Part shown: in pieces, positions 8,421 through 49,669 of the stretch
Layout: every line of letters starts with the position of its first letter
How positions within the stretch are numbered: position 1 is the first letter of the stretch
Assembly (NCBI GenBank): GCA_018806915.1
Contig: JAGKQI010000059.1
Span: 620,001-684,000, forward strand
Direction of reading: 5' to 3'
From: Phytophthora colocasiae
Lineage: Eukaryota; Oomycota; Peronosporomycetes; Peronosporales; Peronosporaceae
DNA length: 64,000 nt
Made by a program: the position numbers and the translations under genes
The notes under the pieces: generated by a model
Databases searched by the model: none
Told to the model about the DNA's origin: nothing
The model's input: the letters and a program-made list of their open reading frames with translations, nothing else

Positions 8421-8509
8421 CACGACGGATCGCGCGACCTCGGTTCGGAACGGCCGAATACGCCCCACCGGAGCGTCACCTCCCCACCCTATTCCACAAC
8501 GCCCGAACG

Positions 8510-8540
8510 CCGATCCGATCCCGGTTCGGAACGGGCCTTA
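8510..8540. repeat. Possible right terminus of the Harbinger element
   Basis: The sequence ends GGTTCGGAACGGGCC at 8537, followed by TTA at 8538-8540. PIF/Harbinger elements usually have GC-rich terminal repeats and a 3-bp TWA target duplication, so this fits the outer edge. The same GGTTCGGAACGG motif recurs about 80 bp inside, near 8440. The opposite terminus is not in the window, so this is inference. Confidence 0.4.
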
Positions 8541-9188: not shown

Positions 9189-9620
9189 CACGTGAAGAAA
9201 AGGTTATCGCAGAAAATGTTATCGATGGTGAGGCTTGAACTGCCAGCACGGCGAGTGGAAGACAGTTAGAGCCAAAGGCAAGCTGTACTCACGTTGTCGA
9301 GGCTGTCGAATGATTTGATTCGAGAATATCGATGATACTATACACACAACTGAGCATTGTACAAAGGATACCTCGCTCATCGATATTCTCGAATCAAATC
9401 ATTCGACAGCCTCGACAACGTGAGTACAGCTTGCCTTTGACTCTAACTATCTTCCACTCGCCGTGCTGGCAGTTCAAGCCTCACCATCGATAACATTTTC
9501 TGCGATAACCTTTTCTTCACGTGGTAGTAGTACTCGCTGGGAGTCACTCACACGGTTCTACGGATTGCAGGATAACATTTGAGGATCGGTGGGAGGTGTG
9601 TTATCGCAACCAGAATTGTT

Positions 9621-9633
9621 CATTCCGCAATTT
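9621..9633 (+). promoter_or_regulatory. Oomycete initiator of NLP copy 1
   Basis: CATTCCGCAATTT, 28 bp before the ATG at 9662, matches the oomycete initiator consensus CATTYYNCAWTTT and is followed by a pyrimidine-rich stretch (CTCCCTCC). An inverted copy of the same promoter lies at about 8845-8860. Confidence 0.7.
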
Positions 9634-9661
9634 CTCCCTCCGGCGCAAGCTCCATTTCACA

Positions 9662-19996: not shown

Positions 19997-20202
19997 AGAT
20001 AGCGAAGCAGCTAATATCCATAGTATTCCGACGCTTTAGAACTTGTGAAAAGTTTCCTGGATATGTTTATCAAAGCACACTTTCATTCGTTTTGGCAGAA
20101 ACTCTACGTCAATATCCGACGTCCGTTGCTGTTGCTGATGGTGGTTTCGCCATCTCAAGTCAACTGCCACACAGCACATTGGAATCGCTCGAGCACTGGA
20201 TA

Positions 20203-22434
20203 ATGGGTTGCTGTTCTAGCTCCGAACAAGTCGGGATTAAGAATGGAGCTCCGTCGGAAGGTGTCGCTCCAGCCACCTCTCGTAAATGTCGAGACGTGTT
20301 GTGTGTAATATTTTTCGCGGTTTTCTGGGTTGGCATGCTCGCTATCGCTGTCGTCGGCTTCATGCATGGTGAACCTAAGAGACTTCTCTACGGATCGGAC
20401 TACAACGGCACTACTTGTGGTACTGGGAAACACGGAGAGCAACCATTAACATTCTACCCACGTATCACACAAGACTTGCTGGAACAGGCTTCAAACCCGT
20501 CGTTATCCCCCCAAGATTTCTCGTTCTACGGTGTTTGTGTGGCAACCTGTCCAGATCCTGGAACCTACCTCTGCAACTACGAAGTAGAGGCTGAAATTCA
20601 AAGCGATACGTCACTAACTACTGACGAACAGCGCGAAGCCGAACGGAAATCCAGGGCGACAGACTTCCTTGTTCTACCCAGTGCGAAAAAGTGTTGGCTG
20701 GTTCCTTTACCGAGTGAGCAGGTTTTTTATCGTTGCCTTCAGATAACGGAGTCGAACTCAACTTCAGTGGAGAAGTGTGTGGTTCCAGGTGATGAACCTG
20801 ACTACTACGACGACGTTAATGGCGTCCAAGTGCCGAACGACAAGTGCGAGATCAAACGAGTGGTAACCACTTCGGAGTCAGTAGAACCGGCACAGGATAA
20901 CCCACTTTATTCTACACTTCAAACCGCTGGTGCTACCGTTGGACGCGTCATTGGAGACTTGCAGGAGACGTGGCCTGTATTTCTCATCTGTGGTGGTGTA
21001 TTGGCGCTCATATTGGGGTTTGCATTCGTGATTCTACTGCGGTTTTGTGCCGGTTGTATTGTGTGGGTTACGCTGTGGAGTTTCGTACTGCTCTTGCTTC
21101 TGTTTGCACTGATGCTGAGCACTAAGGGAGGCCTTATCGGTAGTTCAGATCTCAGTGCATTAACATCCGAGATCGCTTCGGCAGCAGCTACAGCAGGAGT
21201 TGATTCCTCAGGGTTGAACACAACCGAGGTCGTACTACCCCAGACACTACAAGCCAGTCAAGACAAACAAAAGGCGTACGCTGTGGCAGCTTATGTAGCG
21301 TATGCACTGGCCGGTATCGCTCTGTTGCTGGTTTGCTTCTTCCAGAAGAAGATCCGTATTGCAGTTGGCATCGTGAAGGAGGCGTCCAGAGCATTACAGA
21401 ACCTCCCATTGCTCGTTTTGTTCCCTATTATCCCGTTCGTCATGTTGCTGATACTCTTCGCTTATGCTGCAATTGTCGGTGCGTACATCTACAGCTCAGG
21501 CGAAATGCAGTTGTCTTCACTTGCAGGTGAATTAGCCGAAGGAACCGGCCAAACAGTTTCAACTGATGCGACTACGACGTTGAACAAGGTGAGCCCAGAC
21601 CAGACCATGAAGATCCTCGTAGCGTACCATTTCTTCGGCTTTTTGTGGACAGCCCAACTGATTAATGCTATCAGTATGTGTACGATTGCTGGTGCTGTGA
21701 GTCGGTACTACTGGAGTCGCAACAAAACGAGCGAGGAAATGGGGCGGTTCCCCGTATTGGCCTCATTCAAGAACTGTTTCCGCTACCATTTCGGATCGCT
21801 GGCATTTGGGGCTTTCATTATCGCAGTGGTTCAGTTTATCCGCGCTGCACTGCTGTACCTCGACCATCAGACTCAAGACCTACAGAAGTCTAACATCGTA
21901 TTGAAAGTGGTCATGAAAGTGGTGCAATGTTGCTTATGGTGTCTAGAGAAGTGCCTGCGGTTCCTATCCAAGAACGCGTACATCCTCATCGCCATGAAGG
22001 GCCACAGCTTCTGTTCGTCGGCCAAAGATGCATTCAAGATCCTACTGAGTAATATTGCCCAAGTGGGGGCTGTATCCACCGTCACCTTTCTGCTCTTAGG
22101 AGCTGGTAAAGTGGCTGTGGCGCTCAGTTGTGCCATTGTGACATTCGTCTATTTGGAGAAGAACAGCCAGGACTATGGTGTTGGTGGCGTTCACGAACTG
22201 TCGTCGCCTATGGCCCCTATCATACTTTCTCTGGTTTTAGGCTGGTTTGTGGCTTCGACACTGCTTGGAGTCTACGAAATGGCAATCGACACAATCCTAT
22301 TATGTTTCTGCGAGGACAAAGAGGTTAACAAAGCCTCGGGGCAGTATTTCATGAGCGATTCTTTAAAAAAGTTTGTAGCTAGTGTCCCAGTGGACCACAA
22401 GCCAGAGGCACCAGTCACCGACGCACAAGACTGA
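20203..22434 (+). CDS. Choline transporter-like protein (SLC44/CTL family)
   Basis: 743-residue multi-pass membrane protein encoded without introns. The chosen ATG at 20203 gives MGCCSS, an N-myristoylation and palmitoylation-type start also found in other CTL proteins, while the open frame upstream runs back into the NLP gene. Features: first membrane helix about residues 28-50; a large cysteine-rich extracellular loop (VCVATCPDPGTYLC region); then about nine helices in the second half; and the family signature near the C-terminus (LLCFCEDKEVN..GQYFMSDSLK). CTLs carry choline or related amines across plasma or organelle membranes. It begins 207 bp after NLP copy 2 on the same strand; no functional link is implied. 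Confidence 0.88.
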   Translation: MGCCSSSEQVGIKNGAPSEGVAPATSRKCRDVLCVIFFAVFWVGMLAIAVVGFMHGEPKRLLYGSDYNGTTCGTGKHGEQPLTFYPRITQDLLEQASNPSLSPQDFSFYGVCVATCPDPGTYLCNYEVEAEIQSDTSLTTDEQREAERKSRATDFLVLPSAKKCWLVPLPSEQVFYRCLQITESNSTSVEKCVVPGDEPDYYDDVNGVQVPNDKCEIKRVVTTSESVEPAQDNPLYSTLQTAGATVGRVIGDLQETWPVFLICGGVLALILGFAFVILLRFCAGCIVWVTLWSFVLLLLLFALMLSTKGGLIGSSDLSALTSEIASAAATAGVDSSGLNTTEVVLPQTLQASQDKQKAYAVAAYVAYALAGIALLLVCFFQKKIRIAVGIVKEASRALQNLPLLVLFPIIPFVMLLILFAYAAIVGAYIYSSGEMQLSSLAGELAEGTGQTVSTDATTTLNKVSPDQTMKILVAYHFFGFLWTAQLINAISMCTIAGAVSRYYWSRNKTSEEMGRFPVLASFKNCFRYHFGSLAFGAFIIAVVQFIRAALLYLDHQTQDLQKSNIVLKVVMKVVQCCLWCLEKCLRFLSKNAYILIAMKGHSFCSSAKDAFKILLSNIAQVGAVSTVTFLLLGAGKVAVALSCAIVTFVYLEKNSQDYGVGGVHELSSPMAPIILSLVLGWFVASTLLGVYEMAIDTILLCFCEDKEVNKASGQYFMSDSLKKFVASVPVDHKPEAPVTDAQD

Positions 22435-25520: not shown

Positions 25521-28091
25521 CTAAGCAAACTTAGCGAGCGTCACGTACCCCACAAAACACAGGAATCGGAGTACATCCCTCGCAGTCTCTTCAGTACGTC
25601 CAGAAACCGTGCCTTGCATTAAATCATCCCTACGAGTGAGTTCTTCCAGTCCAAAAGACTTCCCCCCACGACTGCGAAGCCACTCCACGAACTTTGACTG
25701 CTCCAGCGAGCAATGACAACGAACGTGAAGGTGCAACTTGAAGTCCTGGCTGCCAGATGCCACGTCAATACTGTACGTTTGTTTTCTGGAGCTCGTTGTC
25801 GCTAATGTCTGATGGCGCTTTGGTGATGGTTTCGGTGTCTTTTTCAATGCTTGATGCGTACTTGGATACTCTTCACCTCGATTTCCCTCTTTTACACCTC
25901 GGTGTGGGATTTTATCCGCTCTCAGCAGCAGAGCAACGGGGTTTACACGATATTTGGCGTCTTTAAAAATCTTCTCACGTTTCAGCTTAAATTTTGGATT
26001 CGTCAGGTCCACTTCGATACTCCGAGTGGCCGGTAACTTGCTCACATCACGAATGAGGCCATGAGAAATCAAATCCTGCAGGTCGTCTGTGCAGAGATAC
26101 TCCGGTACTAGATCTCTTCCCTCCAACTTTGTCATCTCATTACTGAGAGACAGCATACAGTTTTGTAAGTGGCAGCGCATTGCCTTGATTTGATCTCGAT
26201 TACCCGCTTGGATCTGGATTCTCTTTCGAGCTTGTTTGTCGTCAGAGGCCAATTGCTTCAATGCTAATAACATCAACTCCTCACACGTCATGGAAGACAA
26301 CTCCACCTCCATCCACAAGGAGTTTTCACCTTTCGTTGTCGCTTGAAACCACACACTTGCGGGTACATATGCTACTGATCCAGGCTTTAGTGTGTGCTCA
26401 AACACTCCATCGTTCCCACTTCTTTCTTCATCGAAAACTCTTAAGTCATCACGTGGTGGCAATAAAAAACCTTCCCTTCCTGTCCGCCCAGCAGTCAAAC
26501 CATAGACCTTAGCCGCCAATTGATCCATTTCCTCCTGGATCCACGTCTCCGGTTCGAAATTCGCAAGCGGATAGTCAACTTCCCCTTTTATCAGCTTCCA
26601 CGTCATCTCCCCTCTCAACAGGAATACCACCGTCTCCGTTTGTCGGAACCGCCAATCCAGTCCAATACCAACTCTAGGACAGCTCACTAAGTTGGCTGTG
26701 TGCTGGTTCATCGCGTACTCAAGCCCTAGTTCTTTCGCTAAGGGAGAGATGAACTGTTCTGCAACAGTACGAGGAGCTGGAAAACGAAGGCAATTTCCCT
26801 CCAACGCCCGAGCCTTCGCTTTTGACAACGGAGCTAGTTGATCGTGTCCTGTACAGTATTCAACACCTGGAGTTGCAGTTTGTAGCTGTAGCACTGGCCC
26901 ATCCAACGGGTCCACAGCGTCCAACAAATCCACCACCACCAAATGCCGCAGACCAGTGACGTCGTTCTTAACAATGGGGTCAAGTCGACTGATAGGAGCG
27001 TCACCTGCAAATGGAGTAGACGCAAAAGCGCCTTGGACCTTCGCAGCTAAATCTTCAGTCCCCATCAACTGCACCAAAGTCATCCCAGAGCTCGTATTTA
27101 CGCGATTCAAAACAGGAACCGGCAACTTGACATCTTTCTGGACAACTTCCTCCTTTTGAGCATCAGTTAGCTGCTGAGTTCGTAGCACGGGGCAGGACTT
27201 TAAATGTCTCGTTGCATTGCCAGGTGAATCTTTTATCTCCTTGCCACAGTGATTGCACGAAATAATGGATGGAAGATTGATAAAGTGAGTCAAAATCTCA
27301 GTCCCATCGGCTAGCTGTGGCACCGCACAGGTAGCACTCGGAGCTTCGTGCTGGATTTGAGAAGATCGACGTGATTTCGAAGACCGATTGCCGCCTGACT
27401 TGTTGCGTTTGGGAGGTGTCTTCCTCTTCTTGGAAGCCGAGCGCTTTGGTTTCTTCGGGGTGACCGGTGTATTCACTTGAGTAGGCTTCGGACTGGTATC
27501 AGGTGTAGCTACTGCAGGCATAAGAGCGCTAGGAGTTGGACCCTGCGACTTGCTCTTGGCTGCAGGAACTTGCGTAGCTTCTTCAAGGTATTTGGTCGCT
27601 TCTTCGGCTCTCTCATTGTGTGTTTCTCCACTTGGAGGGGTTTCACTCACGATTTCTTCTCCAACAGAAGGGATCTCCATTTCACAAACAGGATCATCAC
27701 GTGGAGTTGCCGTACTTGAGTTTAAACGAGCAGGTACCGTATCCTTCGTCTTTTCAGCAGCAGGAGATCCAGGTATCTGCTTTTCTTCCTCACCCAGAGA
27801 CACTTCTTTCTCTTCTTCCACTTCACCACTGATATCTTGTCCAAGGACCAGTGTCACAGAGGTTTGCTGCTGGATCACAGTGGTGGTATTTGTGACTGCA
27901 GCCATGAGCTTGTTCGTCTGCAGCATTTCCAAATCCTCTTCTTCAGGTGTGTAGTCGAGGCAGTTGTCCACTTCATACTCTTCGCCTCCTTCTTCCTCGT
28001 CGGTCCTGCAGTAGCCAGCACCAGTGGGAAATGGGAACGTCATGGAAGAAGACGAATCCACTCCAAGTCCACTCGCTGTCATGTTGCTCAT
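25521..28091 (-). CDS. C2HC zinc-finger protein with degenerate JmjC/cupin-like domain
   Basis: 856-residue protein. N-terminus: short helix, then acidic low-complexity sequence; a basic SKKRKTPPKRNKSGG stretch that should act as nuclear signal (about 215-250); a C2HC finger CNHCGKE..H..C near residue 280; then a cupin-like fold around 420-620 (CPRVGIGLDWRFRQTETVVF, LLRGEMTWKL, GSVAYVPASVWFQATT). JmjC-like enzymes bind iron through HxD..H; here the positions read LDW and VWFQ, so the metal ligands seem lost and a binding rather than catalytic role is likely. A C-terminal block of about 60 residues may be a winged-helix-like fold. Start ATG 28091 is the first in frame; an upstream exon spliced at TAG 28136 cannot be excluded. 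A truncated paralog lies at 32341-33129. Confidence 0.7.
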   Translation of the reverse strand: MSNMTASGLGVDSSSSMTFPFPTGAGYCRTDEEEGGEEYEVDNCLDYTPEEEDLEMLQTNKLMAAVTNTTTVIQQQTSVTLVLGQDISGEVEEEKEVSLGEEEKQIPGSPAAEKTKDTVPARLNSSTATPRDDPVCEMEIPSVGEEIVSETPPSGETHNERAEEATKYLEEATQVPAAKSKSQGPTPSALMPAVATPDTSPKPTQVNTPVTPKKPKRSASKKRKTPPKRNKSGGNRSSKSRRSSQIQHEAPSATCAVPQLADGTEILTHFINLPSIISCNHCGKEIKDSPGNATRHLKSCPVLRTQQLTDAQKEEVVQKDVKLPVPVLNRVNTSSGMTLVQLMGTEDLAAKVQGAFASTPFAGDAPISRLDPIVKNDVTGLRHLVVVDLLDAVDPLDGPVLQLQTATPGVEYCTGHDQLAPLSKAKARALEGNCLRFPAPRTVAEQFISPLAKELGLEYAMNQHTANLVSCPRVGIGLDWRFRQTETVVFLLRGEMTWKLIKGEVDYPLANFEPETWIQEEMDQLAAKVYGLTAGRTGREGFLLPPRDDLRVFDEERSGNDGVFEHTLKPGSVAYVPASVWFQATTKGENSLWMEVELSSMTCEELMLLALKQLASDDKQARKRIQIQAGNRDQIKAMRCHLQNCMLSLSNEMTKLEGRDLVPEYLCTDDLQDLISHGLIRDVSKLPATRSIEVDLTNPKFKLKREKIFKDAKYRVNPVALLLRADKIPHRGVKEGNRGEEYPSTHQALKKTPKPSPKRHQTLATTSSRKQTYSIDVASGSQDFKLHLHVRCHCSLEQSKFVEWLRSRGGKSFGLEELTRRDDLMQGTVSGRTEETARDVLRFLCFVGYVTLAKFA

Positions 28092-28267
28092 GGTCCCCTG
28101 TATAGTGTCGATTAGATCTCGCACTGTTCCAAAAGCCTACTGACCCAACACAAACAGCAAACACTTGTGGATTAAGGGACGAGACGCAGAAATGACCACG
28201 AGAGAATCGACAAATCACTCAAACCTTCAACTTTCACGGTTAAATATTGCACCACACCAAAGTCTCG

Positions 28268-30301
28268 TTACTCTTCACTGAATTCCGTCCACTCCATGTC
28301 AAGAACGGCGTAAAGTGCTGACTCCATCTCGGCTTTCGACTCATACAGAGGCAGTTCCACGCGGTTGAAGCACGTGTGAACTTTAGGGAAGCCGCGTGTT
28401 TGGTTCGGCAACGGTCTCAAAGAGAAAGGGCAAATGCGACCATCGTAGCTGGTTAAACCCTTGAAACCCTGCACTGGCACTCGCGATGATCCCGTTGAAA
28501 ACTGGAGGAAACGGGCTCGTTCGTCCTCTGTAAAACCTTGGATCACTTCCCAGAACCAGTCAACGACCATCGGAGTGTCGCTGAAGGATGGAGCAACCAC
28601 TGTGTTGCGCTTCCAGTCGGTCATGTCGATCTCCGGTAAACCGCAGAGCACCAGCTCCAGTTCCTGGTAGTCGAAGACCAGTAGCGCTTCTTGAGGGATG
28701 ATCTCAAACAATCCAAGCGACAGAGCTTGCAACTGAGGAGCGTAGCGGTCTAGCATGAGGTACCTGAGCTTGAGATGGAGAAACTCCAGTTTGTTGGAGT
28801 CCGTCACTGGTTTGTCCCTTCCGTCGGGAACTAAATCGATTGTGATCACTTCGTCGTCAGCACGCAGCTCCGTGACGCAGAACGTGAGCTCCAGAGCGTC
28901 TACGCCGTCGTTATCACGGATCCAAAGCATACTGGTGTACACTTCCGGGTCCACATACTGTAGATCTGAAAATGTTATGGGTGTGCCGAGGAAATGCTTG
29001 AGAATAGGCAGACACAGTCTTGCCTGCATCGTTTGACCTTCCAGCAGTGCGCGACCAAGCAATCTGCCGATACCTCGGAAGTACAACAAGTGATCGGCAG
29101 TGCAGTCCTCAGAATGAGGATTAATAGCCACGGCCTGTGTGTGTCTGTTGCACGTCATAAAGAGCCCAAGTTCATCATCCAACAGTCTACCGAACAAGAT
29201 GGAGAACCATTCACGCTGTAAACCGCCAGCATCAATTCCTGCTTCACCGACGAACTCAATCCGAAGAGGGAAGTGAATGTGCTCGGGTTGGATACCCAGT
29301 AATTGCTCCATACTTTCCACTAGAATGTGTTCACGCTGGACTCGCAACTTGATTCGTCCTTCTTCCCACGGCCTCAACAGCGCTCCCATTCTCTCCAAGA
29401 ACCACGAGTATTTCTTCGGGAACGGCAGTCGAGATACTCTGTCCAGCAGTTCTAGTTCACGAGCAGTAAGTTTATAGCCGCTGATCGTCTCTGCTGCATC
29501 TAGTTGAGAAGCCTCAGCGAACGTAAGACGCCCGACGTCTCCCATAGTGGACGAGCGACGCACCATGTGCGTCACAAAACCCACAGACACCCGTCCGTGT
29601 CCTCCGTTGTTCGCGGCGCCATTCACGACGGTCAGTCTTCTGGCAGCGGCCGCAACGTCCGCTCTGGTCCAGAATGCAGACTCTCCGTCTTCTCCTAGGC
29701 ACCGAACCCACTCCTTGCGTCGTCGAGCGTACTTCTGTCTCGGGTTAAGTGTCGAGAGTCTCAGAGGCCTGAGCGACTGTCTACTGCCCACACTGAGCAC
29801 AGAAGACCGCTGCGTAGATAATGACGGCCTTGTGAGCATCGTTATGGAGCTGGTAGAGCTCAAGCGTTCGTCCCTGCCTGCGATCGAGTGCTTAAGACGT
29901 GGCAGCTCCTCTCGGTCCGAGCCACGACGGTGGTGTTTGCTGTTCTTAGTGCCGCACAACATGCACGTCGGACGGTCCATGGCGTTGCTAAACTCGCACA
30001 CGGAGCACTTCCAGCGCTCTGCCTGGGCCTCTCCTCGCTCTAGATCAAGACGTGTAATTGTCTCCTGTTCCTGTAGTAACATTCTAAGCAGTATGAAGTG
30101 TCAACGCAGGTTAAGAGACTTGTAACTTTGCTTCTAGATGGAGTTAAAGCCTCGCAATAGGACGTACCTGGCCAGAAAGGACTGGGATGCGCCCCGGAGT
30201 TGGTTTCGTGTGCGTAGGAACCATAGTCCACCCGCAAACACGAGCAGAAGCATCAAAGACACCATCGGAAGTAAAACAGACATTGAATCATCAGACTCCA
30301 T
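28268..30301 (-). CDS. Membrane-anchored RanBP2-zinc-finger HECT E3 ubiquitin ligase
   Basis: Two exons, 30301-30168 and 30083-28268, with an 84-bp GTACGT..TAG intron, give 649 residues. Exon 1 encodes a single hydrophobic helix (VLLPMVSLMLLLVFAGGLWF) followed by Arg-rich sequence, so the protein is probably tail-out in a membrane with the rest in the cytosol. Exon 2 starts with a RanBP2-type zinc finger (WKCSVCEFSNAMDRPTCMLC, about 68-88), a feature that often binds ubiquitin, and then a HECT domain from about residue 290 with the catalytic cysteine in HTCFNRVELP, 37 residues from the end. The HECT fold is complete (EFVGEAGIDAGGLQREW, LPNQTRGFPKVHTC). The substrate is unknown. Confidence 0.85.
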
Positions 30302-33185: not shown

Positions 33186-36100
33186 TTAGTTACTTTCCTT
33201 GTCCGAATCTGCCCAGCACGGCTGGATGTCCGATAGCACGTAAAGTAGATCATTGCCAGTGAGAACTTCATGTGGCTGGGGGTTCACGTACACGTAGCCA
33301 AATGGCACGCTTCGATCGGTCTCCGGGACTTCAATACGAGCCCTTGGAGCTGTCCGTATCCACTGACCTTCAGTGAGCGAATGCACAGAAGAGGGCTGCA
33401 GCATGGCGTCTGGACGACAGCGATAGAGGCCGATAACCAAGATCCCGTCCGACGACAACAAGTAGTGGAAGACAAACTCGAACGTTCGCCCAACAAAGTC
33501 CAACGGCACTTCCACTGCAAACAGAGAACTCCGCTGCACGTCCAGAGTTGACGACGTTGATACTGTGGGGGAAGCCACTGCTGTGCCGTCTGCGGCCGGA
33601 GTGCTGGGTAAAGTGCCGACTCCACCTTCGGTCCAGGAGGCGAAGATGAACTCGCGCAGGATGTTCTTGATACGAGCGTTGAAGAACTGGTTGATGAGCA
33701 GACTATCGCACAGTGAAGTGCTGTAGGTGAGTCCAGCTGCAAAAGCTGGTGATACAGCGAAGTTCCGTGCCAGTTCCAACGAAGATGTTGATGACGCTGC
33801 TGAATCACACTCCGAGAGCGGGAACCAGCCGCTTACGCTGAGGTTTTGAGCCACAAAGTGTACGTTGGCTCGGTTCACAAGCTCCGTGATGATGCGTGGG
33901 GCTTGTGTCGGTCCGATAAGAGTTGTGATGGTCTTGTGGAGTGCAATGCAGGGCTACAAATGGGAATGTCAGAGAATCAAGAGCATCACAAGTGACACTA
34001 TAACAGACTTACCGCGTCTTGGAGGAGCTCCGACGTACCAGCGTCTGATACTTCGCCCTCGGCCCCCATAAGGACGATACGGAACGCCTTGTGGACGCCA
34101 GCTCGTCTCAGCGTGCTGTATCGGAACGGATCCCCCACTATGAAGTGAACGCCGAGGAAGCGCTGAAAGTGCTCGTAGTCGTCTTCTTCGGGCAACGTTG
34201 CAGTCACAATAACTACCGGTCGATGCTGACGAAGTGCACGCACTCGCAAAGGACCGATGAGGTACTCGAGATGGTGGGGAAACGATGAAGCAGACAGCAC
34301 ACAAACGACTATGTGTCTGACTTCGAAGTGTAACGAGGCCACGTCCTGTATCACTGCTGCCTCGGCGGTGTGTGAATCGGTAGGAGAAAGCCCACTGGTC
34401 TTCACAGTGAGAGGATAGTCATCGTCGTCTACGTCTGGTTTCCAGACGTCTTGGGTCTCTTGGGTAAAAGTTGACGCGGGGCTTGTCGCCTCAGTCTGCC
34501 AATTGACAAAGCGAGATCGTCGACGATGAGATGAAGAGACATCGCTGCTGGGCGTGTCATTTCCTGTACTGCTTCCAGTCGTTGACGCTAGTTTGGCTCT
34601 GCCGCTGGCTCCGCGCGAAAGATGGCGGGACTTGGAGCCTCGTCTTTGAGAAGTCCACGCATCCGGCATACTAGAGCTTGGCTGCATATCCGTCACTGCG
34701 CTGGCTTCACGACGGTCTCGAGCAATGACGAAGACGGTCTCGTCTCCTACACACGAGTACGAGTCTCCAGGGTTTAGAAGCAGCTTTCCGGCGTTCCCTT
34801 TAGAGGATTGGGCCGTGGTGATAGCGAACACAATTACACCGCAGCACTGAGCGTATACCAGCGAAGCCACTTCGGAGAAGGTTTTATCATGCACCACCGA
34901 AGCTGGAGGGAGCTGTACCGAGTACACTTCATGGCTTGAGCCGTGTAAATATCGATCTTCCCATGACGCATCAGCTTCCGGAGGTTCATCGTAGTCGCCA
35001 CTAGTATCGTAGCTTGAGGTTGATGTGAGACTGTACATGAAGGTCGAGAAGCCTGGACACACGCAGTTTTGGCCAAGAAGCGAGTGCATAACCTCAGAGA
35101 AGCAGAGCACGTTGGACACCCCCAGATCGGCAACAAGGCCTCGATTGGCTGACAAGTGGAGCTGGGCGAACACACGAGCATTTGGGGCCTCCCGTCGAGC
35201 AGCTAAAACCCTCATCAATGCGCGATGGTCACTGCTAGCTGGAGATTCGCCTGCTACACGTCGAGCTAGGATGAAAATGGCATCAGCTGAGGCGCAAGCT
35301 GCACGTTGGGAATCATCGACATCCAGCAGTGATCCTTGTATAAAGCTCGCACGTTTCTCGAAGAATGGGTCCATGAGTAGCGAGATGAGAGAAGTCGCGG
35401 GCTCCTCTTCACTCAGCACCACAACGTTGATGTCAACCAAATCGTGATCATCGTGAAAAACTTCTCGGAAGAAGTGGTCGATACGCGATGGGGTTAAATC
35501 GCCGCATAGTATAATATGCTTGCTGGTCGAACACGGCGAGTGACTCGCCAGCTCGTACGGCGAGAAGGAGCTGCCTAACGCCAGGATCTGGGACACTTGG
35601 TACGGCACTACCAGGATGAGAACCAACACGAGAGCCCCCACACAGACTTTAGCCAACGGGTTGTCAGCAGGGGGTGACTGGATCGTCACGAACGCGAGCA
35701 CCGAGTTGAAGAACGCGTTGAAAAACGTCCAGTCACCGAGATTCCCGTTCGCATACTGAGCGTCTGCCGTTTCTGCAATCTGAATGACACCCGCAGCGAC
35801 AGCAATAATGATCGTTAGCTGGAGGTAGCACAGCATCGCGAACTGCTGGACTGGAGACACGAGTCCGTGGCAACGACTCAGCACAGCTTTGGCTTCAATG
35901 TAGCACATGATGAACCGGATCGGGTAGAGGAAACGCCAGTCGGAGATGTCGTACCAGAGTGTGCTGTGGACAATAAGTAAGTGGGTTAGCAGATAGCACC
36001 TTTTGCTGGGAATAAACATTTGTGACTCACTGGTATTGAAGGAAGAACGACGTTGGCAGCACTGGCAGCACTACAGTGAGGGTTACAAGCCCCGGTAACG

Positions 36101-38628: not shown

Positions 38629-40239
38629 ATGCTGCGCTTTAACTCACAACTTCCGGCGCTCAGAGCACGTCTGGCACCTGCAACTTCGGCCATATGCTCT
38701 CCATATCTTAACGTCGTGCGGTTCAAGCGTTCGGCTGCAAAATCTGGTCGTGTGAGCGCTGCTAGCGGCTCCGGTAGGGCGTTCACCAGATTATGATACA
38801 TTCACGAAACTGCAACTTTTGACTTGATGCTGGTGATGGACAGACCGGAGCGCGGCGTTGACCATGGCTATCCGTCAGATTGAGAGTAGCTTCGGCAAAG
38901 GCGCTGTGATGCAATTGGGCTCTACGTGAGTGATTTCTAACTGTTATTATATGCCGGTAGCAAAATCTAACAAACGATGTTGGTGCAGTAAAATTTCGGA
39001 GCGTGTGGAGGTAATTTCGTCCGGATCGCTGTCACTTGACTTGGCTTTAGGCGTTGGTGGCATTCCAAGAGGGTGTGTAAATGGATGGAGCAAAAAAATT
39101 GAGTATTAACTGACGTTTTGCTGCATCGATAGACGAGTGGTGGAGATTTATGGCCCTGAGAGCTCCGGCAAGACGACACTAGCCCTGAGCTGCATCGCTG
39201 AAGCGCAAAAGACTGAAGGCGGAGTGTGTGCCTTTATCGACGCAGAACACGCCATTGATGCGCACTATGCCAAGGCTCTGGGTGTTGATATCGACTCCCT
39301 GTATGTCTCTCAGCCGGACTCCGGCGAAGAAGCTCTAGAAATTGCGGACACGCTCATCAGATCGGGAGCTGTGGACCTCGTGGTGCTGGACAGTGTGGCT
39401 GCTCTTGTGCCGCGTGCCGAACTGGAGGGGGAGATGGGAGATCAGCAAATTGCACTGCAAGCGCGACTCATGAGTCAGGCATTGCGAAAGTTGACTGGGT
39501 CGTTGTCCAAATCCAACTGCACCATTATATTCCTGAACCAGATTCGGCAGAAGGTCGGCATCATTTTCGGTTCACCTGAGGTAACATCGGGTGGCACCGC
39601 ATTGCGTTATTACGCGTCCGTCCGGCTGGATATCCGCCGTAAGACGGCCATTAAAGAGGGCGACCAGGTTGTTGGCAATGAGACGGTGGTTAAGGTGGCG
39701 AAGAACAAGCTCGCTTCGCCCTTCAAGGTGGCAAGTTTTGACATGATGTTCGGTCATGGCATCGATCGTCAATCCGAGCTGGTCAGTATAGTTGAGATGG
39801 AATTCAATTGTGGTTGCTCATTCTGCTGAGGGTATGTATGTAGCTGGACTTAGGTGTGCAGCACGGTCTTTTGAAGCGGTCGGGGGCGTGGTACAGTCTG
39901 GCTGGAGGTGATGGTACGTTTTCGGGAGGTTGAAGCTTAAACAAAAGCTCTTTTGACGTGTACATGTTTGCAGAACCTATTGCTCAGGGCAAGGCTAAAG
40001 CCAAGATCTTTCTGCAGGAGAATCCTGAAATTGCCAAGGACCTCGAAGCGAAGCTACGTCAAATGCTTTTCGAGCCGACGGAGCCTGAACATGAAGCTGA
40101 GGTAGTTGAAGAGGTCAATCCGGGCGCCACCGATGATGCTAGTGGTGCCGACAGTGAAAGCGAGGAACCAAACGTTTCGACGTCAATCGAAGACGTTGAG
40201 AGTGAAGCTACCAGTGAAGATGAGAAGGTCACAGGGTGA
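38629..40239 (+). CDS. recA: Bacterial-type RecA, probably mitochondrial
   Basis: Six exons, 38629-38773, 38844-38925, 38989-39072, 39133-39781, 39844-39913, 39974-40239, give 431 residues. Exon 1 encodes an Arg/Ser/Ala-rich leader ([20 protein letters not shown]) with the character of a mitochondrial targeting peptide. The rest matches RecA closely: [15 protein letters not shown], Walker [68 protein letters not shown], and [12 protein letters not shown], so recombinase residues are intact. It ends in an acidic tail, like bacterial RecA. Role: strand exchange in organellar recombination and repair. The first splice is the least certain (GTAGGG donor at 38774). Confidence 0.9.
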
Positions 40240-40504: not shown

Positions 40505-43500
40505 CTAAAATGCCATACTGAACGATGTCGGTGGGAGCACAGTCGCCACCTGGCACCTCTCAGCCTTCGAGTAGCGCTTCTTGATCACCGCCAAGTTGTT
40601 CGACGGTGAGTTAGAGTACAGCGTTTGAAGCTCTCCCATGCATTCCTTCAGGTCCGACCAGTTGTACTGGCACGCATCCACCAATTCCTTGGTCTAAAAG
40701 AACAAGAACATGGGAGACGTTATCACATGAAAAAGACAACAGTAGGATATGAAAAACTTACCATCGGGAACCCGTCAATCGTGAACATCGCCATCGATAA
40801 ACAGCACGCAGCCACAACTGAGGGCAAGTATTTCAGGAACTGGTACTCTTGAAGCGCCAGCTCAAGCAAATAGTGCGCCAACATCGATGTCTTCTTCTGA
40901 ATGGGCGGGATCATGCGCTCATAGATGTTCAAGAAATCCAGCGCTGCAAGAATCAAAAGAACAGGAGGTTAAGGCGAAATTGTCGTCGTTGATACTAGCA
41001 CTTGAACGACGTACCAGTGGGCACTGAGAGCGTAAAGTTGAGAGTGTTCAACAGTTTTTCTTCCATCTCCAATACTTCCACGGAAGTGTATACGTTGTCA
41101 GCGCACATCGCAAGGTCTTCCACGCCGATGTAGGACACGTCTTCGCATTTGGAGGCCACGTGCAAACACGTGGCTCCGAGCAATTGAAACTGGGTTTTCT
41201 TCACCATGACGATGTCCAGGTAGCGGTCTGTGTAATTTACGGCCAGGAATGCCGTTCTAAGGCACATTTCGAACACGTCCACAACTGCCAGAGACAAGCA
41301 TCATATTAGTCTAATACGTAGGTTCATGCAATCCTTGAGAATGTTTACCGTACCTTCAATGAGCCAATCCACAAGCATTGATCGGTGGGCAGGTCGAAGT
41401 GTCTTCTGGCGGCTGCAACAGCATAATTGAAAAAATGATGACTCAACAGCTTCAAGCCAAAGATTGAGGACAATTGAGTTTTGCCAACGTACCTCAGATA
41501 CTTGATTTCTTTCCAAGATTCCAGCTCTGTCTGGCGCAGATATGCATGAAACAGCTCGACGTGCTCCGGGGTAGGGCCGATTCGTGCACGGCTCATCGTG
41601 TAGCACATTTGGTCCATTGGAATCTTTGGTGTAAGTGGCAAGAACGCTGGAACTTCACTTGAAAAATATGGATGGCGAAGCGCATCTTCAGCCGTAATTC
41701 GCTGGTCGGGATTGTACACGAGCAGCTTTGTCAGCAGGTCGATACCAAGATCCGAGATTCCTGGAAACAGACGATTCAAAGGTCGGCGCTTCCAGTGTGG
41801 GAATTCGAAGTGGTAGTTCGGCAAAGACGAGAAGCCTGGCCACGTCTCTGAAGTGGGCGTCGACAGTTTGCTGAAGATCTGAAATAGCTGGTCGATCTCA
41901 GAAATACCGGTGAAAAGCGGCTTGCCTTGGGCCATTTCTGCAAAGATGCACCCGACAGACCAGATGTCCACCGCAGAGGAGTAGCCTCGCACTCCCATCA
42001 GAATTTCCGGAGGGCGGTACCACAGCGTGACCACCTCCATCGTGTAAGTTCGGCGAGGGATTCCAGTTGCTCGAACAAGCGCGAAGTCAGAAATCTGAAG
42101 TGTAGCGTCACCTAGACGAGGGGGGAATATTTCGGTTAGCGCGGATTTTCAATCGAGAATAACAAGATGGCAACTTACTGAGGTTGTCTGTATCAGACGC
42201 CTTGATAAGCAAGTGCTTTGGTTTAAGATTACGGTGCAAGACACCGCGTCGATGGCAATATGCGATTGCATCCAGAAGCTGGTGAAGAAGTCTGCGAATC
42301 TAAGGGGATGATCAATACCTGTTAAAAATTCGCAATAGTTTGTGAGAACAAGATGAACTTACCACAGTCTCTGGCAGTACACGGCCGCCATTTGGGTCAC
42401 CACTAGGGTTTATAATTTCATGTAGAGTTTTGTCCACATAGGGAAAGAACACGTGAAGTTCATCCTTTGCTAGACTGATGAGTTCAAGAGATGCAATGTG
42501 ATCATGCTTGATTCCCTTCAGCACTGCTAACTCTCTCAGCATGTAGTAAGGCACACCTTCTCCCTGTAAGACAGCATTCACAACAAACCATCGTTAGCAC
42601 AATACAATCCGTTATCAATCTAGTACAAGCCCACCTTAGGGAAAACACGGGCTTTCTTCATGGCGAGGATTTTGCCTGTGGAGCGCTGACAACACTTTAT
42701 ACAGGTGCCCTCGGTCCCCTTGTTCTTGATGCCCAAGTTTTTAAAGTTGATCCAGTTCACCGATCCTTCTGGCGTCACACTCGGGAGAGATCGGTATAAG
42801 GATCGTCGACTAGTGAGTTCTTTCCACTTCTTTGACACATGTGCCATGTTATGGAGATCCTTGGTCGTGACGAGGAACGAGAACACGTGCAAGATAATGT
42901 CGATGGGCTGCAGATCGAAGTGCTCCGTTGGCGACAACACCGCCTCCACCTCCTCCATTTTGACTTCGGGGGGAGCGTTCCCGTCCCAGTCTTCGTCGTC
43001 ATTGGCTGCAGGGGACGCGATCAAGATCTCTCGACGCACCACTTTGCTGGCTCGATGTTCCACGGCTCGCTCAGAGGGATCAATAGAGAATCCCTCTTCT
43101 CCTGCCTCTTGGCTGTGGATGTGTTCTCTGGCATACGCCACAAAGTCCGTCGTCTTGGCCGTCTTGGTCTCACTACTATCGTCTTCTCGTTTCCTCTTCT
43201 TGTTCTCTTGCGCTTCACTATGGATCTTCTCCTGTTTCACTTCATGTATCTCGTGTTTAACGTCTTCGACGTGTAGTTTCTCGTCTTTCTCCATTCTAAC
43301 TGTTACTTTGTCCTCCTTAAGCGCCATCTTCTCCTCGTTCGTAGAGCTGATCTGGGACAGATCTAGAGGCTCTGGTTCAGGGAATCCGTTGGGTATTGCT
43401 GCCTGAGACCTCGGAGTGCCTCCTAGCGCTGCCAAAATGGGGTTATCCACCCCAGGCGTGCACAGAAGCAGCGGGAGACCGCCTCGCTTCCTCTCGGTTT

Positions 43501-43597
43501 CGGTCTTGATCGGCACAGCGACCCCTTGGCCCGAGGTGGAGGTGGCTCTGCGCTTCTTGGAGGGCGTCGAGTCCGAGAAAGACACGGAGGCGTCCAT
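40505..43597 (-). CDS. F-box / CDK-like kinase / cyclin fusion protein, copy A
   Basis: Eight exons, 43597-42635, 42563-42363, 42299-42179, 42111-41493, 41412-41354, 41284-41015, 40943-40762, 40693-40505, all GT..AG with consistent phase, give 867 residues. Order: charged low-complexity N-terminus; F-box (about 234-275, [20 protein letters not shown]); CDK-like kinase (about 282-600) with helix PYYMLRE in place of PSTAIRE, Lys in AMKK, and T-loop [17 protein letters not shown]; then cyclin N and C boxes ([27 protein letters not shown].., [11 protein letters not shown]). Catalytic positions are altered: HRN for HRD, KPKH for KPxN, DFA for DFG. A longer N-terminus from ATG 43759 is possible. 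It may be an SCF-linked regulator carrying its own cyclin. Copy B lies upstream on the same strand. Confidence 0.85.
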
Positions 43598-43964
43598 GCA
43601 GGGAGAGACTGGAGAGATCTCTCTCTCACTTCCCTCTCTTGACTTTTGTATGGGAATGCAGTGCCCGCGCTTCTTCAGGGCGAGCGGACAGTAGCGGCGA
43701 CAAACACTCTGGCAGTTTCGCCTAACCACTACTAGTATTCCATCTAATGTGGTCCACACACCGTGGTTTTAGAAATAAAAAGTGGAAGCAATAGGTGCTT
43801 TTCTCGGTGAAGCACTATGTATTTCATCGACGTAACTTGTTTTTCTTCTCTTTAGCATCGATGACGTTTTGTACGCTTTCAAGCAAATATTTTTATTATG
43901 CAGCAGTGGTTTTAAAAGAATCGATATCATATTCAAGTTATCAGAATCAAAAGGACCACTTCAA

Positions 43965-46499
43965 CTAAAAGGCCATTTTGAATAGCAACGGCGAAGGAAT
44001 GTTCGCCACTTCGCATTGCCCTGGCTTCGTAACCACCACACGGGAAATGTATGTTGATGGCGCACTCGAGAACAGTGTCTGGAGTTCCTCCATGCAGTCT
44101 TTCAAGTCTGACCAGTTGTACTGACTAGCGTTAGCCAGCTCTGTAGTCTGCAATCAACGTTAGAATACTGGAAAATAATACGAGCAAATAGCAATTGGCT
44201 TACCATTGATACTCCATCGATCGTGTAAATTGCCATGGACAGACAGCATGTGCTCAAAACTGAGGGTAAATACTGCGTAAACTGGTACTCTTGAAGTGCC
44301 AGTTCGAGCAGGTAGTGCGCCAGCATGGATGTCTTCTTTTGAATAGGAGGCAGCAAGCACTCATAGATGTTCAAGAAATCCAGCGCTGGACAGACGAAAT
44401 AGAATGCTGCACGTTAGTGACTCAGATATTTCCATCCTAGATGAAGATTACGTACCTGTTGGTATGAAGAGCTCGAAGCTAAGAGTGGTCAGCACTTTTT
44501 CTTCCATGTCTAGCACTTCACTTGACGTGTACATATTGGCGGAGCACAGTACAAGGTCATTTGCACCGATGTAGGACACATCTTCGCACTTGGAGGCGAT
44601 GTGTAAACAGGTCGCCCCAACGAGTTGTAGCTGCGACTTGTCCACCGCGATAGCGTTTAGATAGCGATCGGTATAGTTGACAGCCAGGAAAACTGTTCTG
44701 GGGCTCATCTCGAAAGCATCAATCACTACAATAAATGCAGTAAGCCAAGGAAACCATAAGTAAGATCTATCCGCAACGAAATCAGTACTACAAGGCCACT
44801 TACCTTCTATCATCCAGTCGACGAGCATGCCTCGATGCGAGGGGTTCCACATTTTTTCAATGCCAGAACAACTACACACAAACACTTAGTTAGGAAAAAA
44901 AACGAACGAATTACATCCACGCAAAACGCTCCTGTACGTACCACGACAAGTCGGTCTCTTTCCGACTCTTTAACTGCATTTGACGCATATTCGAGTGGAA
45001 TAGTTCGGCATGCTCCGGAGTAGGACTCGTCCACAATTGACTCACTGTTTGCCACATTTGATCGAGGCAACTTTGAAGAGTGATTGGCAAAAGTGATGGT
45101 GTAGACAAAAAATACGGGTGGTGAAGAGCTTGCTCCGCCGTAATTCTTTCATCCGGATTGTAAGTGAGCAGCTTCTTCAGTAGGTCCATACCGATACTCG
45201 AGAGTTGTGGGATCCTGCTGGCTAAAACGTTGTGCTCCCAGTGCGGAAACTCAACGTCGTGATTTGGCAACGAGGCAAAGGCTGGCCACATTTCGGGTGT
45301 GGGTGTCGACAGCTTGCTGAATATCTGAAATAACTGGTCGATTTCTGAATCACCCGTGAACAGCGCTTCACCTTGGGCCATTTCAGCGAAGATACATCCA
45401 ACAGACCACATGTCCACAGCCGAAGAGTATTTATCCACTCCCATTAGGATCTCCGGGGCACGGTACCAGAGCGTTATCACCTCTGCGGTGTAAGCTTGGC
45501 TTGTAATTCCTGTCGCTCGAACCAGCGCAAAGTCAGAGATTTGTAGCGCGGCATCACCTGTGACGGGCAAATAGCATGATTTAACGGGTTAGTGATTGAT
45601 CTTTGTACTGGTAAGCATAATACCCACTGAGATTTTCTAGGTCCGATGTTGTAACGAGCAAGTGCTTCGGCTTGAGGTTGCGATGTAAAACTCCAAGACG
45701 ATGGCTGTACGCAACAGCATCGAGTAGTTGATACAGAAGCTTGCGAATCTACACAGCGACCCAAAACATACTACGCTTGAGTCGTTTTCAATACAAAGTA
45801 CGTAGAAATACTTCGAAATAATACATACCGCTGTCTCCGGAAGAGCTCGACCGTCATCCGTAGGATATATCATCGTGGCAAGGGTTTCGTCGACGTAAGG
45901 AAAGAACAAGTGAAGCTTGTTGTTGCTTAGACTGACCAACTCCAGTGGTGTAATGTGGTCGTGCTTCATTCCCTTGAGCACCGCTATTTCGCGAATCATA
46001 TAGTACGGCACTCCTTCCCCCTAGAAGACAACAACAGCACAAATCAGTCCTAGTGTTGCCATTCATCAAAACGTAACACTCTTACATCGGGGTACACTTG
46101 AGCTCTCTTCATCGCCAGAATCTTGCCGGTAGATCGCTCAATACACTTGAAACATTCGCCTTCAGTCCCTTTGCACTTGAACCCCAAATTTTTGAAATTG
46201 ACCCAGTTCACAGATCCGTCGGGGTTCAAACTCTGCAGTGACTGGTATAGCGACGGTGAATCGATCAGCTCGTGCCATTTCTTCGATACTGCCGCCATTT
46301 CACTCAGGTCCTCGATCGTGACGAGGAAGGAGAAAATCTCCAAAAGGATCGCATCGGCCTCCTCGTCACAGTCGTCCAGAACAAGTACAAGATCCTCGTC
46401 TCCGCTATCCGCTGCATGGTTGCCAGCAGCAGCCGAGGAGCGTCGTAGCGCTTCGAGCACGCGGTTCGCACCCAGTGGAGTCTGAAGACTAGATAACAT
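43965..46499 (-). CDS. F-box / CDK-like kinase / cyclin fusion protein, copy B
   Basis: Tandem paralog of copy A, 681 residues from eight exons: 46499-46086, 46020-45829, 45748-45628, 45557-44942, 44871-44804, 44725-44456, 44385-44204, 44147-43965. All intron positions and phases match copy A. The N-terminal low-complexity part is shorter. F-box about 51-92 (EIFSFLVTIEDLSEMAAVSK); kinase about 100-400 with PYYMIRE, AMKR, T-loop AYTAEVITLWYRAPEIL; cyclin boxes about 450-681 (GMLVDWMIEG, YLNAIAVDKSQLQLVGATC). It has the same HRN, KPKH and DFA substitutions. Intact. The two genes end and begin about 370 bp apart, consistent with an old local duplication. Confidence 0.85.
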
Positions 46500-46885
46500 C
46501 TTGTTGATCTTCCGCGCTAAAAGTGTTGTGAGGCTTCGCGAATTGTACCCAGCCACTTCAACCCAACAAGGTATACTAATATATTAAATGCATCAAAGTG
46601 GCTGAAGCATGCACATATTAAATTGCATGACTACTGTATATAACTCTACGAATAGGGTGAATGAAGCAGGTAAAATCAAGCACTCAAAGCTTCTCGTTCA
46701 AAGCACCAGAACAAGAAGATCATTTAAAATATGTTTTTTTTTATCTGATCCATCGTATGCTCGCATTTACGTAATCCACACCAAAAATCTCTTGGAAAGA
46801 TACGTGTCACCATCAAGGCACAGCTCACAATTCAAGTAGCTGTTCAAGGCTCAAGTCTCTCTTCTTGTCCCCGTTATAATACACT

Positions 46886-49669
46886 ATGGCATCTGGCCAC
46901 GCCACCGTCAAGGCCGTCCTGTCGGGCGACACGCTGGTGCTCATTGGTGCAGCCACCAATGGGCCCCCTCCAGAGCTCATGCTCACACTTTCGTCCCTCC
47001 AAGCGCCTCGATTGGCTCGTTCCCCTGAACAGAGCAACGAACCCTACGCTTGGGCCAGTCGTGAGCACCTCCGCAAGCTCTGTATTGGCAAGCAGGTGCG
47101 CTTTAAAGTGGAGTACCGAGTACCTGCAATTAACCGGGACTTCGGCTCCGTTTGGCTGCCTGCCAACAGCAGAGGCGTCGAGGAGAACTTGTGTGTCATC
47201 CAGGCTCGCACAGGGTACGCAAGGGTCAAGACATTGGATCAGTCCAGAGACGGCGTGTGTGTGGACCACGAGAAGATGCTGCAACAGGAACAAGTAGCCA
47301 TCAACGAGAAGAAGGGAATGTACGCAGACGCCGATGCAGAATCCAACGCGACGGTGCAGTGGCATGGAGCTGATGCAGAAGCTTTGGTGCGGGAATTCAA
47401 GGGAAAATTGGTGCCGGCCATTGTGGAGTCGGTGCGAGACGGAGCTTCTCTTCGTGTCATCCTTAAACCGTCACTGCAACTTGTCAACTTCGGGTTGGCT
47501 GGCGTGCAGTGTCCTAGAATCAACCCGCCTGTTAACGCAGCAGCAACCGAGGAGAAAGAAGGAGAAGCAACGCCCCCACCCGCTCCAGTGGGTCCTGCAC
47601 CTCACGCACGGGAGGCAAAGCACTTTACGGAAGTGCGTCTTCTTCACCGTGACGTGGAGCTGAAGCTGGAAGGTGTGGATAAGTATGGCAACCTGTACGG
47701 TAGTGTCGTTCACCCGTCCGGACGCAACATCAGTGTTGAGCTGCTGAAGAGCGGACTTGGGCGTATGGCTGACTGGAGTTCGGCTTTTACCAGTGCTTCG
47801 GCACGTGCCACTATGCGCACAGCTGAAAAGGAGGCCAAGCAACAGAAGTTGCGAGTGTGGAGAGAGTACGAGGCGCCCGTGCTGCAATCTGCTAAGCACC
47901 TGACTGGCACCGTCGTGGAGGTTATTAGTGGCGACTGCCTGGTTGTCTACGTGCCCGATGCTGCTACTCCGGAAGAGCAGGAGAAGCGGATCTACTTGAG
48001 TTCTCTACGTGCCCCGCGTCTGGGTAACGCTCGTCGCAACGAGCCCAACGCCCCGTACGCTGGTGAAGCCAAGGAGTTCCTGCGCAACCGTGCTATTGCC
48101 AAGACTGTCCACATTGAGGTCGAGTACGAGAAGCCTAGTCCGTCGGGCCAGGGCGATGTCATGACCTTTGCATCCGTGTTCCTGGAGCCGTCGGCCAACG
48201 CACTGAAGAAGAACCCACAGGCCAAGGGCGCTAACCTTGCTGTCGACGTTGTGGCTGCTGGTTTGGCTGAAGTGGTGCGACACCGTCCCGACGAGGAGAA
48301 GAGTGAGCACTATGATGACCTCGTGACGGCTGAGACGAAGGCCCAGACACAGAAGAAGAACTTGCATTCGAACAAGGAGGCCCCTTCCACGGAGCGTCGT
48401 GTGACCGACCTGTGCTTCGATGCCACCAAGGCCAAGCAATTCCTGCCCTTCTTGACGCGTGAGCGCTCGACCCGCGCTGTGGTGGAACACGTGTACTCGG
48501 CTACTCGCGTAAAACTTTTCGTCCCCAAGGAGAACTGTCTGATTAACTTCGTGGTTGCCGGCGTCAAGTGCCCGCAGCCTGCTCGCCACGGTGCTCAGGG
48601 TGTGATCATCCAACCTGCCGAACCCCTTGGCGAGGAGGCCAAGCTGTTCACCAAGCGCAGTGTTATGCAGCGCGAGGTGATGGTGGAGATCGAGGATATG
48701 GACCGTGGAGGTAACGCCTTCGGCCCCCTGTTTGTTGTGCCCAACGGCGGTGGAAAGCCCCTGCGCGATGACCAGCACAACTTCGGTGTGCGTCTCCTGG
48801 AGGAAGGCCTGGCTTGGGTCGACTCGTTCAGCGTAGAGCGTACTGCTCTTGGCAACGTCCTTCAGCGCGCTGAAGAGCGTGCAAAGGCGCAAAAGAAGAA
48901 GTATTGGGCTACGCATGACGCACAGGCCGCGGCCAAGGCCGTCCAGGCGAAGCAGGTCAAGACGAAGGACGATGTGATCCCTCGTGTCAAGCTCTCCGAG
49001 ATTGTCAACGGCGCGCACTTCTACATTCAAAACGTGGGTGACCGCAACTGTGCCGCTGTGGAGGAGAAGATGAAGGCGTTCACCCGCACTCATGGTCTTG
49101 CTGGCAAAACCTTCGAGGTGCGTCGGAATGCCGTGTGTGCTGCACTGTTCGACGACGGCAATGGCTCTGCTTGGAACCGTGCTAAGGTCGAGTACGTTCA
49201 CCCGGATGGCTCTGCTCGTGTCCGCTTCCTCGACTACGGTAACGAGGCCACGGTGAAGGCCAACCACCTACGTCCTCTTGACGCGGACGTCCTGCAATTC
49301 CCGCCTCAGGCCAAGGAGGCCGCCTTTGCTTGGATTAAGCCGCTGGCGGCTACGGAAGAGTTCGGTTCTGATGCTGCCATGCGCCTCGGCGAAGTCGCGT
49401 GGGGCAAGACTCTATCGTGTCGCATTCATAACACCGACGATCACGGTCGCATGCAGGTTTCCCTCTACCTGCCGGATGGAAAGAGCGTCGCTGAGAACCT
49501 CGTGGAGGCTGGTCTGCTACGCACGGACCGCAAGGCTCTACGATCTTTCTTGCCTTACCAGAAGCCTGTTGTTGACGGCCTTCTCAACGCACAGGAGACG
49601 GCCAAGAAGCAGCGCCGCAGCCTGTGGCAGTACGGAGACATTGAGTCTGACGACGAGCATGGCCTGTAA
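46886..49669 (+). CDS. SND1: Tudor-SN (staphylococcal nuclease and tudor domain protein, SND1)
   Basis: Single exon of 927 codons; animal SND1 is about 910. Four staphylococcal-nuclease-like repeats (about 5-140, 165-315, 325-485, 515-665), each with the VLSGDTLVL-type opening and LLKSGLG/GLA-type closing, then a Tudor domain (about 700-800, VRFLDYGNEATVKANHLRPL) embedded in a fifth partial SN fold. The family binds structured and hyperedited RNA, takes part in RNA silencing and stress granules, and can cut inosine-containing RNA. ATG 46886 gives MASGHATVKAVLSGD, the usual start of the first SN fold. Codon use is GC-rich and regular, as in a highly expressed gene. Confidence 0.95.
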   Translation: MASGHATVKAVLSGDTLVLIGAATNGPPPELMLTLSSLQAPRLARSPEQSNEPYAWASREHLRKLCIGKQVRFKVEYRVPAINRDFGSVWLPANSRGVEENLCVIQARTGYARVKTLDQSRDGVCVDHEKMLQQEQVAINEKKGMYADADAESNATVQWHGADAEALVREFKGKLVPAIVESVRDGASLRVILKPSLQLVNFGLAGVQCPRINPPVNAAATEEKEGEATPPPAPVGPAPHAREAKHFTEVRLLHRDVELKLEGVDKYGNLYGSVVHPSGRNISVELLKSGLGRMADWSSAFTSASARATMRTAEKEAKQQKLRVWREYEAPVLQSAKHLTGTVVEVISGDCLVVYVPDAATPEEQEKRIYLSSLRAPRLGNARRNEPNAPYAGEAKEFLRNRAIAKTVHIEVEYEKPSPSGQGDVMTFASVFLEPSANALKKNPQAKGANLAVDVVAAGLAEVVRHRPDEEKSEHYDDLVTAETKAQTQKKNLHSNKEAPSTERRVTDLCFDATKAKQFLPFLTRERSTRAVVEHVYSATRVKLFVPKENCLINFVVAGVKCPQPARHGAQGVIIQPAEPLGEEAKLFTKRSVMQREVMVEIEDMDRGGNAFGPLFVVPNGGGKPLRDDQHNFGVRLLEEGLAWVDSFSVERTALGNVLQRAEERAKAQKKKYWATHDAQAAAKAVQAKQVKTKDDVIPRVKLSEIVNGAHFYIQNVGDRNCAAVEEKMKAFTRTHGLAGKTFEVRRNAVCAALFDDGNGSAWNRAKVEYVHPDGSARVRFLDYGNEATVKANHLRPLDADVLQFPPQAKEAAFAWIKPLAATEEFGSDAAMRLGEVAWGKTLSCRIHNTDDHGRMQVSLYLPDGKSVAENLVEAGLLRTDRKALRSFLPYQKPVVDGLLNAQETAKKQRRSLWQYGDIESDDEHGL

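Follow-up and report, generated by a model that had tools for sequence, protein, structure and literature searches.

Known systems and the tandem genes

Fusions of a cyclin-dependent kinase (CDK) with a cyclin have been described in Phytophthora infestans, for which four such genes, a kinase–cyclin join confirmed by reverse transcription PCR (RT-PCR) and the replacement of the catalytic aspartate by asparagine are reported in the sections consulted of Judelson and Ah-Fong (2010, PMC3019232). The same sections mention related genes in ciliates, in Theileria and in further oomycetes, and report no relative in two diatoms; inactive kinases in general are viewed there as scaffolds or regulators. 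In a second system, SKP1–SKP2–CKS1 assembles with CDK2–cyclin A, and CDK–cyclin-bound p27 is a substrate of SCF-SKP2, a ubiquitin ligase of the SKP1–cullin–F-box (SCF) type (PMC10318019, sections consulted). In a third, cyclin F, which does not bind or activate CDKs, acts as an SCF substrate receptor through its cyclin hydrophobic patch (PMC8670743, sections consulted). Here, we analyzed a window of 64,000 nucleotides from Phytophthora colocasiae (assembly GCA_018806915.1, contig JAGKQI010000059.1, positions 620,001–684,000 of the forward strand), in which two tandem genes, A and B, each encode an F-box, a CDK-type kinase domain that is catalytically dead as judged by its sequence, and a cyclin. 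We hold with about even confidence that both proteins are SCF substrate receptors in which the dead CDK–cyclin module would bind the targets.

Genes A and B share with the P. infestans fusions the order of domains (CDK, then Cyclin_N and Cyclin_C) and the Asp-to-Asn change in the catalytic loop. They differ from the published account in that the term F-box is absent from the main text of PMC3019232 and the His, DFA and T-loop pattern is not found in the sections consulted. The best PDB matches of the parts of A and B (Skp2; CDK3 and CDK2; cyclin A2) mirror the SKP2–CDK2–cyclin A assembly, which likewise brings together an F-box protein, a CDK and cyclin A. However, that assembly is built from separate chains with an active CDK and receives p27 via CKS1 (PMC10318019, sections consulted), whereas A and B are single chains with a dead CDK, and no Pfam match to a leucine-rich repeat was obtained in either protein. 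By analogy, the family looks like a one-chain version of the animal SKP2–CDK2–cyclin A assembly. Cyclin F (FBXO1) also carries an F-box and a cyclin in one chain, but it is not known to have a kinase domain, whereas A and B have a Pkinase domain (about 1e-51 in both), and the cyclin box of gene B is not of the F type.

Gene structure

The two genes fill positions 40505–46499 on the minus strand, with gene B (46499–43965) upstream of gene A (43597–40505), and the span runs exactly from the gene B start codon (46499) to the gene A stop codon (40505). Exon structures were inferred from splice signals and homology; each gene has eight exons separated by GT-AG introns of 56–80 bases, with equal intron phases in A and B. 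The spliced products, of 867 (A) and 681 (B) residues, are 66% identical across 637 alignment columns, and both gave Pfam matches above the curated cut-offs to F-box-like (A, 1.3e-10; B, 9.8e-10), Pkinase (1.8e-51; 1.5e-52), Cyclin_N (3.3e-34; 1.9e-32) and Cyclin_C (3.3e-25; 1e-18). A sequence-only reading of this DNA had described an F-box/CDK/cyclin triple fusion, twice in tandem, and had pointed to CDK–cyclin fusions in oomycetes; its coordinates and domain list agree with the splice models and Pfam matches, and such fusions are indeed published for P. infestans (PMC3019232, sections consulted). Gene A has in addition a charged extension of about 225 residues at its N terminus, with two basic clusters. 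The features, all on the minus strand, are as follows (exons from the splice models).

42635..43597, minus: gene A exon 1 (phase 0; Pfam), start codon, charged N-terminal extension of about 225 residues, F-box, kinase Gly-loop and Lys
42785..42907, minus: gene A F-box, residues 231–271 (PF12937, 1.3e-10; genome rank 2 of 15)
42363..42563, minus: gene A exon 2, PYYMLRE helix (PSTAIRE position)
42179..42299, minus: gene A exon 3, ten-residue catalytic loop
42228..42230, minus: gene A residue 412, Asn codon at the catalytic Asp position (sequence, splice model)
41493..42111, minus: gene A exon 4, DFA motif, T-loop, kinase C-lobe and linker
41354..41412, minus: gene A exon 5, start of the cyclin box (11-residue stretch)
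41015..41284, minus: gene A exon 6, Cyclin_N (Pfam)
40762..40943, minus: gene A exon 7, Cyclin_C (Pfam)
40505..40693, minus: gene A exon 8, end of Cyclin_C and stop codon
46086..46499, minus: gene B exon 1 (Pfam), start codon, F-box, kinase Gly-loop and Lys
46236..46349, minus: gene B F-box, residues 51–88 (PF12937, 9.8e-10; genome rank 6 of 15; Skp2 F-box fold match)
45829..46020, minus: gene B exon 2, PYYMIRE helix
45628..45748, minus: gene B exon 3, ten-residue catalytic loop
45677..45679, minus: gene B residue 226, Asn codon at the catalytic Asp position (sequence, splice model)
44942..45557, minus: gene B exon 4, DFA motif, T-loop, kinase C-lobe and linker
44804..44871, minus: gene B exon 5, start of the cyclin box
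44456..44725, minus: gene B exon 6, Cyclin_N (Pfam)
44204..44385, minus: gene B exon 7, Cyclin_C (Pfam)
43965..44147, minus: gene B exon 8, end of the cyclin and stop codon

Genes A and B differ at 27, 18 and 56% of codon positions 1, 2 and 3, respectively (678 aligned codons), and the same domains are listed in one chain for relatives in many species, so the coding architecture is not due to chance. Since splicing was inferred from sequence, adjacent kinase and cyclin genes might have been merged in the models, but we consider this artefact very improbable, given that the exons of both paralogues are cleanly bounded by GT-AG introns and agree in phase, that these relatives have the domains in one chain, and that the join was demonstrated by RT-PCR in P. 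infestans (PMC3019232, sections consulted).

The kinase domain

The kinase domain gave its nearest alignments with CDK3 and CDK2. The catalytic loop of both genes departs from HRDLKPQNLL at the two residues that characterize an active CDK, the catalytic Asp of HRD being replaced with Asn (HRN) and the metal-binding Asn with His. In addition, DFG is changed to DFA and PSTAIRE to PYYM(L/I)RE, and the Lys–Glu pair, the DFG Asp and the T-loop Thr are retained. HRD was found in all six of the other kinase loci read in the same genome. We therefore classify the kinase domains of A and B, on their residues, as pseudokinases. The sequence-only reading had rightly recognized a CDK-type domain but overlooked the lost catalytic Asp, without which the cyclin is unlikely to turn on a working kinase.

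A search for relatives yielded 255 sequences (E ≤ 1e-60), and the motif counts and species names given here are those of the 120 that were listed. The loop was HRN in 100 of them and HRD in 9, and was missing from the gene model in 11; the nine HRD relatives had no cyclin in their domain lists. Conservation was assessed by aligning 62 near-full-length members selected from the 120, with columns that we take to correspond, in name and role, to residues of CDK2. The Asn at the catalytic position was invariant (62/62), and the His at the metal-binding position and the Ala of DFA were each present in 61/62. The T-loop Thr was found in 61/61 sequences and each of its three Arg partners in 62/62. 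Thus, in this alignment, the catalytic residues carry fixed substitutions, and the features of the phospho-switch and of the peptide side are retained.

The residues that hold ATP are also kept (Lys33 position, 59/62; Glu51, 61/62; Asp145, the DFG Asp, 61/62), and, with the near-invariant Asp-to-Asn and Asn-to-His changes, this pattern could point to an enzyme of altered chemistry, the pocket of which would use ATP in another way. Nevertheless, the Gly-loop is itself altered, with Glu at the position of Tyr15, the Wee1 tyrosine, in 61/62 and Cys at that of Val18 in 55/62, and we know of no precedent for this set of residues. An enzyme of this kind therefore seems to us quite improbable.

The cyclin part

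The PDB matches of the cyclin part of gene B were led by cyclin A2 (1.6e-33), followed by cyclin B1 (1.6e-23), D3 and cyclin F (1.4e-18); by these matches, the cyclin part is A-type-like and closer to cyclin A2 than to cyclin F. The Lys with which cyclins grip the CDK was conserved in all 62 aligned members, and two adjacent Glu columns at the Glu295 position were occupied in 56/62 and 57/62. The substrate patch was largely retained (Trp 53/62, Glu 54/62, Gln 46/62), except that its first Met was replaced with His in 42/62 and its Trp with Arg in 6/62. The linker between the kinase and the cyclin varies in length among family members. The structure prediction bears on the suggestion, made from the sequence alone, that the cyclin docks on its own kinase: the kinase shape in the predicted chain is closest to that of CDK2 bound to cyclin, which is consistent with such docking, although the contact itself is inferred.

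The F-box and its conservation

Among the PDB sequence matches of the F-box up to an E value of 10, seven of nine were Skp2 entries (best value 0.0087), and the predicted F-box of gene B matched the Skp2 F-box fold, with the junction between F-box and kinase predicted with confidence. Fifteen F-box-like matches were found in the whole genome (E ≤ 0.001), among which gene A ranked second and gene B sixth, and two SKP1-family loci were above the cut-off.

The Pfam F-box-like model was positive in 40 of the 60 members tested (E ≤ 0.01). A family-specific F-box model, trained on 27 members and applied to the other 33 after removal of the 22 residues preceding the GTEG loop, placed 31 of the 33 above all 982 shuffles that gave a score (1650 made); P0073 barely passed, and P0088 and P0071 failed. 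The test took in Hondaea, Choristocarpus and Discosporangium, and left out Tribonema, Chrysoparadoxa and Phaeothamnion. The F-box is thus present, by sequence comparison, in almost every one of the 60 members and looks ancestral to the family, contrary to the earlier view of it as an unusual addition. The fold prediction and ortholog survey proposed with that view gave a Skp2-like F-box and relatives both within and beyond the oomycetes.

Two P. infestans models in our dataset start inside the F-box, with its latter half (MTLVSKNWREL), and have therefore probably been truncated within this domain. Truncated models of this kind may explain why PMC3019232 has no F-box in its main text. Some relatives are named 'cyclin-dependent kinase with F-box domain' in GenBank, and UniProt calls many of them 'Cyclin-F', so the domains were already visible in databases; the triple fusion is not described in the titles or abstract openings of the literature searched.

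The retention of the F-box also bears on the idea that these proteins are scaffolds or allosteric partners of a real CDK or of CDK-activating kinase (CAK), with no role in ubiquitylation and an F-box that only holds SKP1. The T-loop Thr and the three Arg that hold it, all of them invariant, could represent a retained CAK docking surface, and scaffold or regulator roles are attributed to inactive kinases (PMC3019232, sections consulted), but an F-box kept in nearly all members tested argues against such a role, which we regard as unlikely.

Relatives and history of the genes

The listed relatives include oomycetes of the genera Phytophthora, Peronospora, Bremia, Plasmopara, Pythium, Lagenidium, Albugo, Aphanomyces, Saprolegnia and Achlya and, beyond them, the labyrinthulid Hondaea, and Choristocarpus, Discosporangium, Tribonema, Chrysoparadoxa and Phaeothamnion, from among the brown algae and related groups. 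A tree of 40 chosen rows agreed with the oomycete groups. The branch of gene A was very short (0.0099; 98% identity to P. megakarya over 577 columns), whereas that of gene B (0.11) fell in a clade whose other five rows were all from Phytophthora. Gene A therefore looks like the slowly evolving, conserved original and gene B like a faster duplicate of the Phytophthora lineage; the tandem pair has one architecture, as the sequence-only reading had it, but its members are not equals. A search of the genome with exon 4 of gene B recovered two copies, A and B, and the next match was 52% identical and had HRD.

P0160 (HRN, though with KPDN) and P0147 (by eye, LRD in the loop and GFA for DFG) are triple fusions at a greater distance that clustered weakly with the family, so the triple architecture may be older than the invariant set of motifs. 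P0126 and P0124, CDK–cyclin fusions with no F-box listed, retain HRD, fall apart from the HRN family and are possibly active single-chain CDK–cyclins. P0129 is a fusion of a CDK-like domain and a cyclin with EF-hands, in which a pattern search found no normal catalytic loop. The family member P0104, deposited under Batrachochytrium salamandrivorans BASA81, is 85% identical to P0108 and perhaps comes from a foreign contig in that assembly.

Proposed function

If A and B are SCF substrate receptors, the F-box would bind SKP1, and the C-terminal cyclin A-like part would dock in cis on the dead CDK and keep it in the predicted cyclin-bound shape. The pseudo-CDK–cyclin could then bind proteins bearing CDK-type signals, with an S/T-P site lying in the peptide groove and a docking motif contacting the cyclin patch, and present them for ubiquitylation; targets would be held because the pseudo-CDK would be unable to phosphorylate and release them. 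Binding may be gated by CAK, acting on the strictly conserved threonine of the T-loop. The spacing between the Trp of the F-box and the GTEG loop was 36 residues in 38/62 rows and 35–38 in 46/62, and this near constancy, together with the variable kinase–cyclin linker, fits a substrate placed at a set position.

We rank substrate capture for SCF first and, second, a self-destructing decoy, a view near that of the sequence-only reading, in which the dead CDK–cyclin would compete with CDK1–cyclin for substrates or regulators and the F-box would mainly drive ubiquitylation of its own chain, thereby timing its level. F-box proteins are able to autoubiquitylate, and a dead CDK with its substrate-side and cyclin contacts kept would suit a decoy. 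However, the near-constant distance from the F-box to the N-lobe is more in keeping with a placed substrate than with a simple degron, neither protein contains a KEN box, and the sole long match resembling a destruction box in each lies within the kinase domain. Self-destruction is therefore the less probable function, and it is likelier that the F-box destroys targets than the unit itself.

Other genes in the window

A gene of the NPP1 (necrosis-inducing protein) family (9509–10555, plus strand, 2.4e-68) lies between two elements, at 431–5074 (minus) and 11290–16087 (plus), of which one is a retroelement with reverse transcriptase and a chromodomain and the other is copia-like. Open frames resembling a bacterial-type RecA, with a GPESSGKTT motif, apparently split by an intron and possibly organellar, lie at 39110–40239 (plus). 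A Tudor-SN type gene (46880–49666, plus), with four SNase matches and a Tudor domain, and gene B are transcribed in divergent directions. The window also contains a choline-transporter-like gene (19960–22431, plus), a HECT ubiquitin ligase gene (28271–30100, minus) and part of a BK-type potassium channel (34001–36070, minus). The open frames at 25524–28136 (minus, 871 residues) and 7431–8537 (minus, 369 residues) had no Pfam match at 1e-5.

Implications

A and B unite in one chain three parts that animals build from separate proteins, and the catalytic step has apparently been removed, a change fixed in the members examined. The known oomycete CDK–cyclin fusions probably bear an F-box as well, lost from some gene models. 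We tentatively suggest that the family is an ancient, hard-wired CDK mimic of the stramenopiles, a T-loop-gated trap that would read the signals of a true CDK–cyclin and send the bound proteins to SCF for degradation rather than phosphorylate them, such that the balance between real and dead kinase would decide the fate of cell-cycle proteins. If the proposed function is correct, the cell cycle of a group including crop and fish pathogens would possess a degradative arm for CDK-type targets, and the dead CDK would be a natural test of the roles of CDKs besides catalysis.

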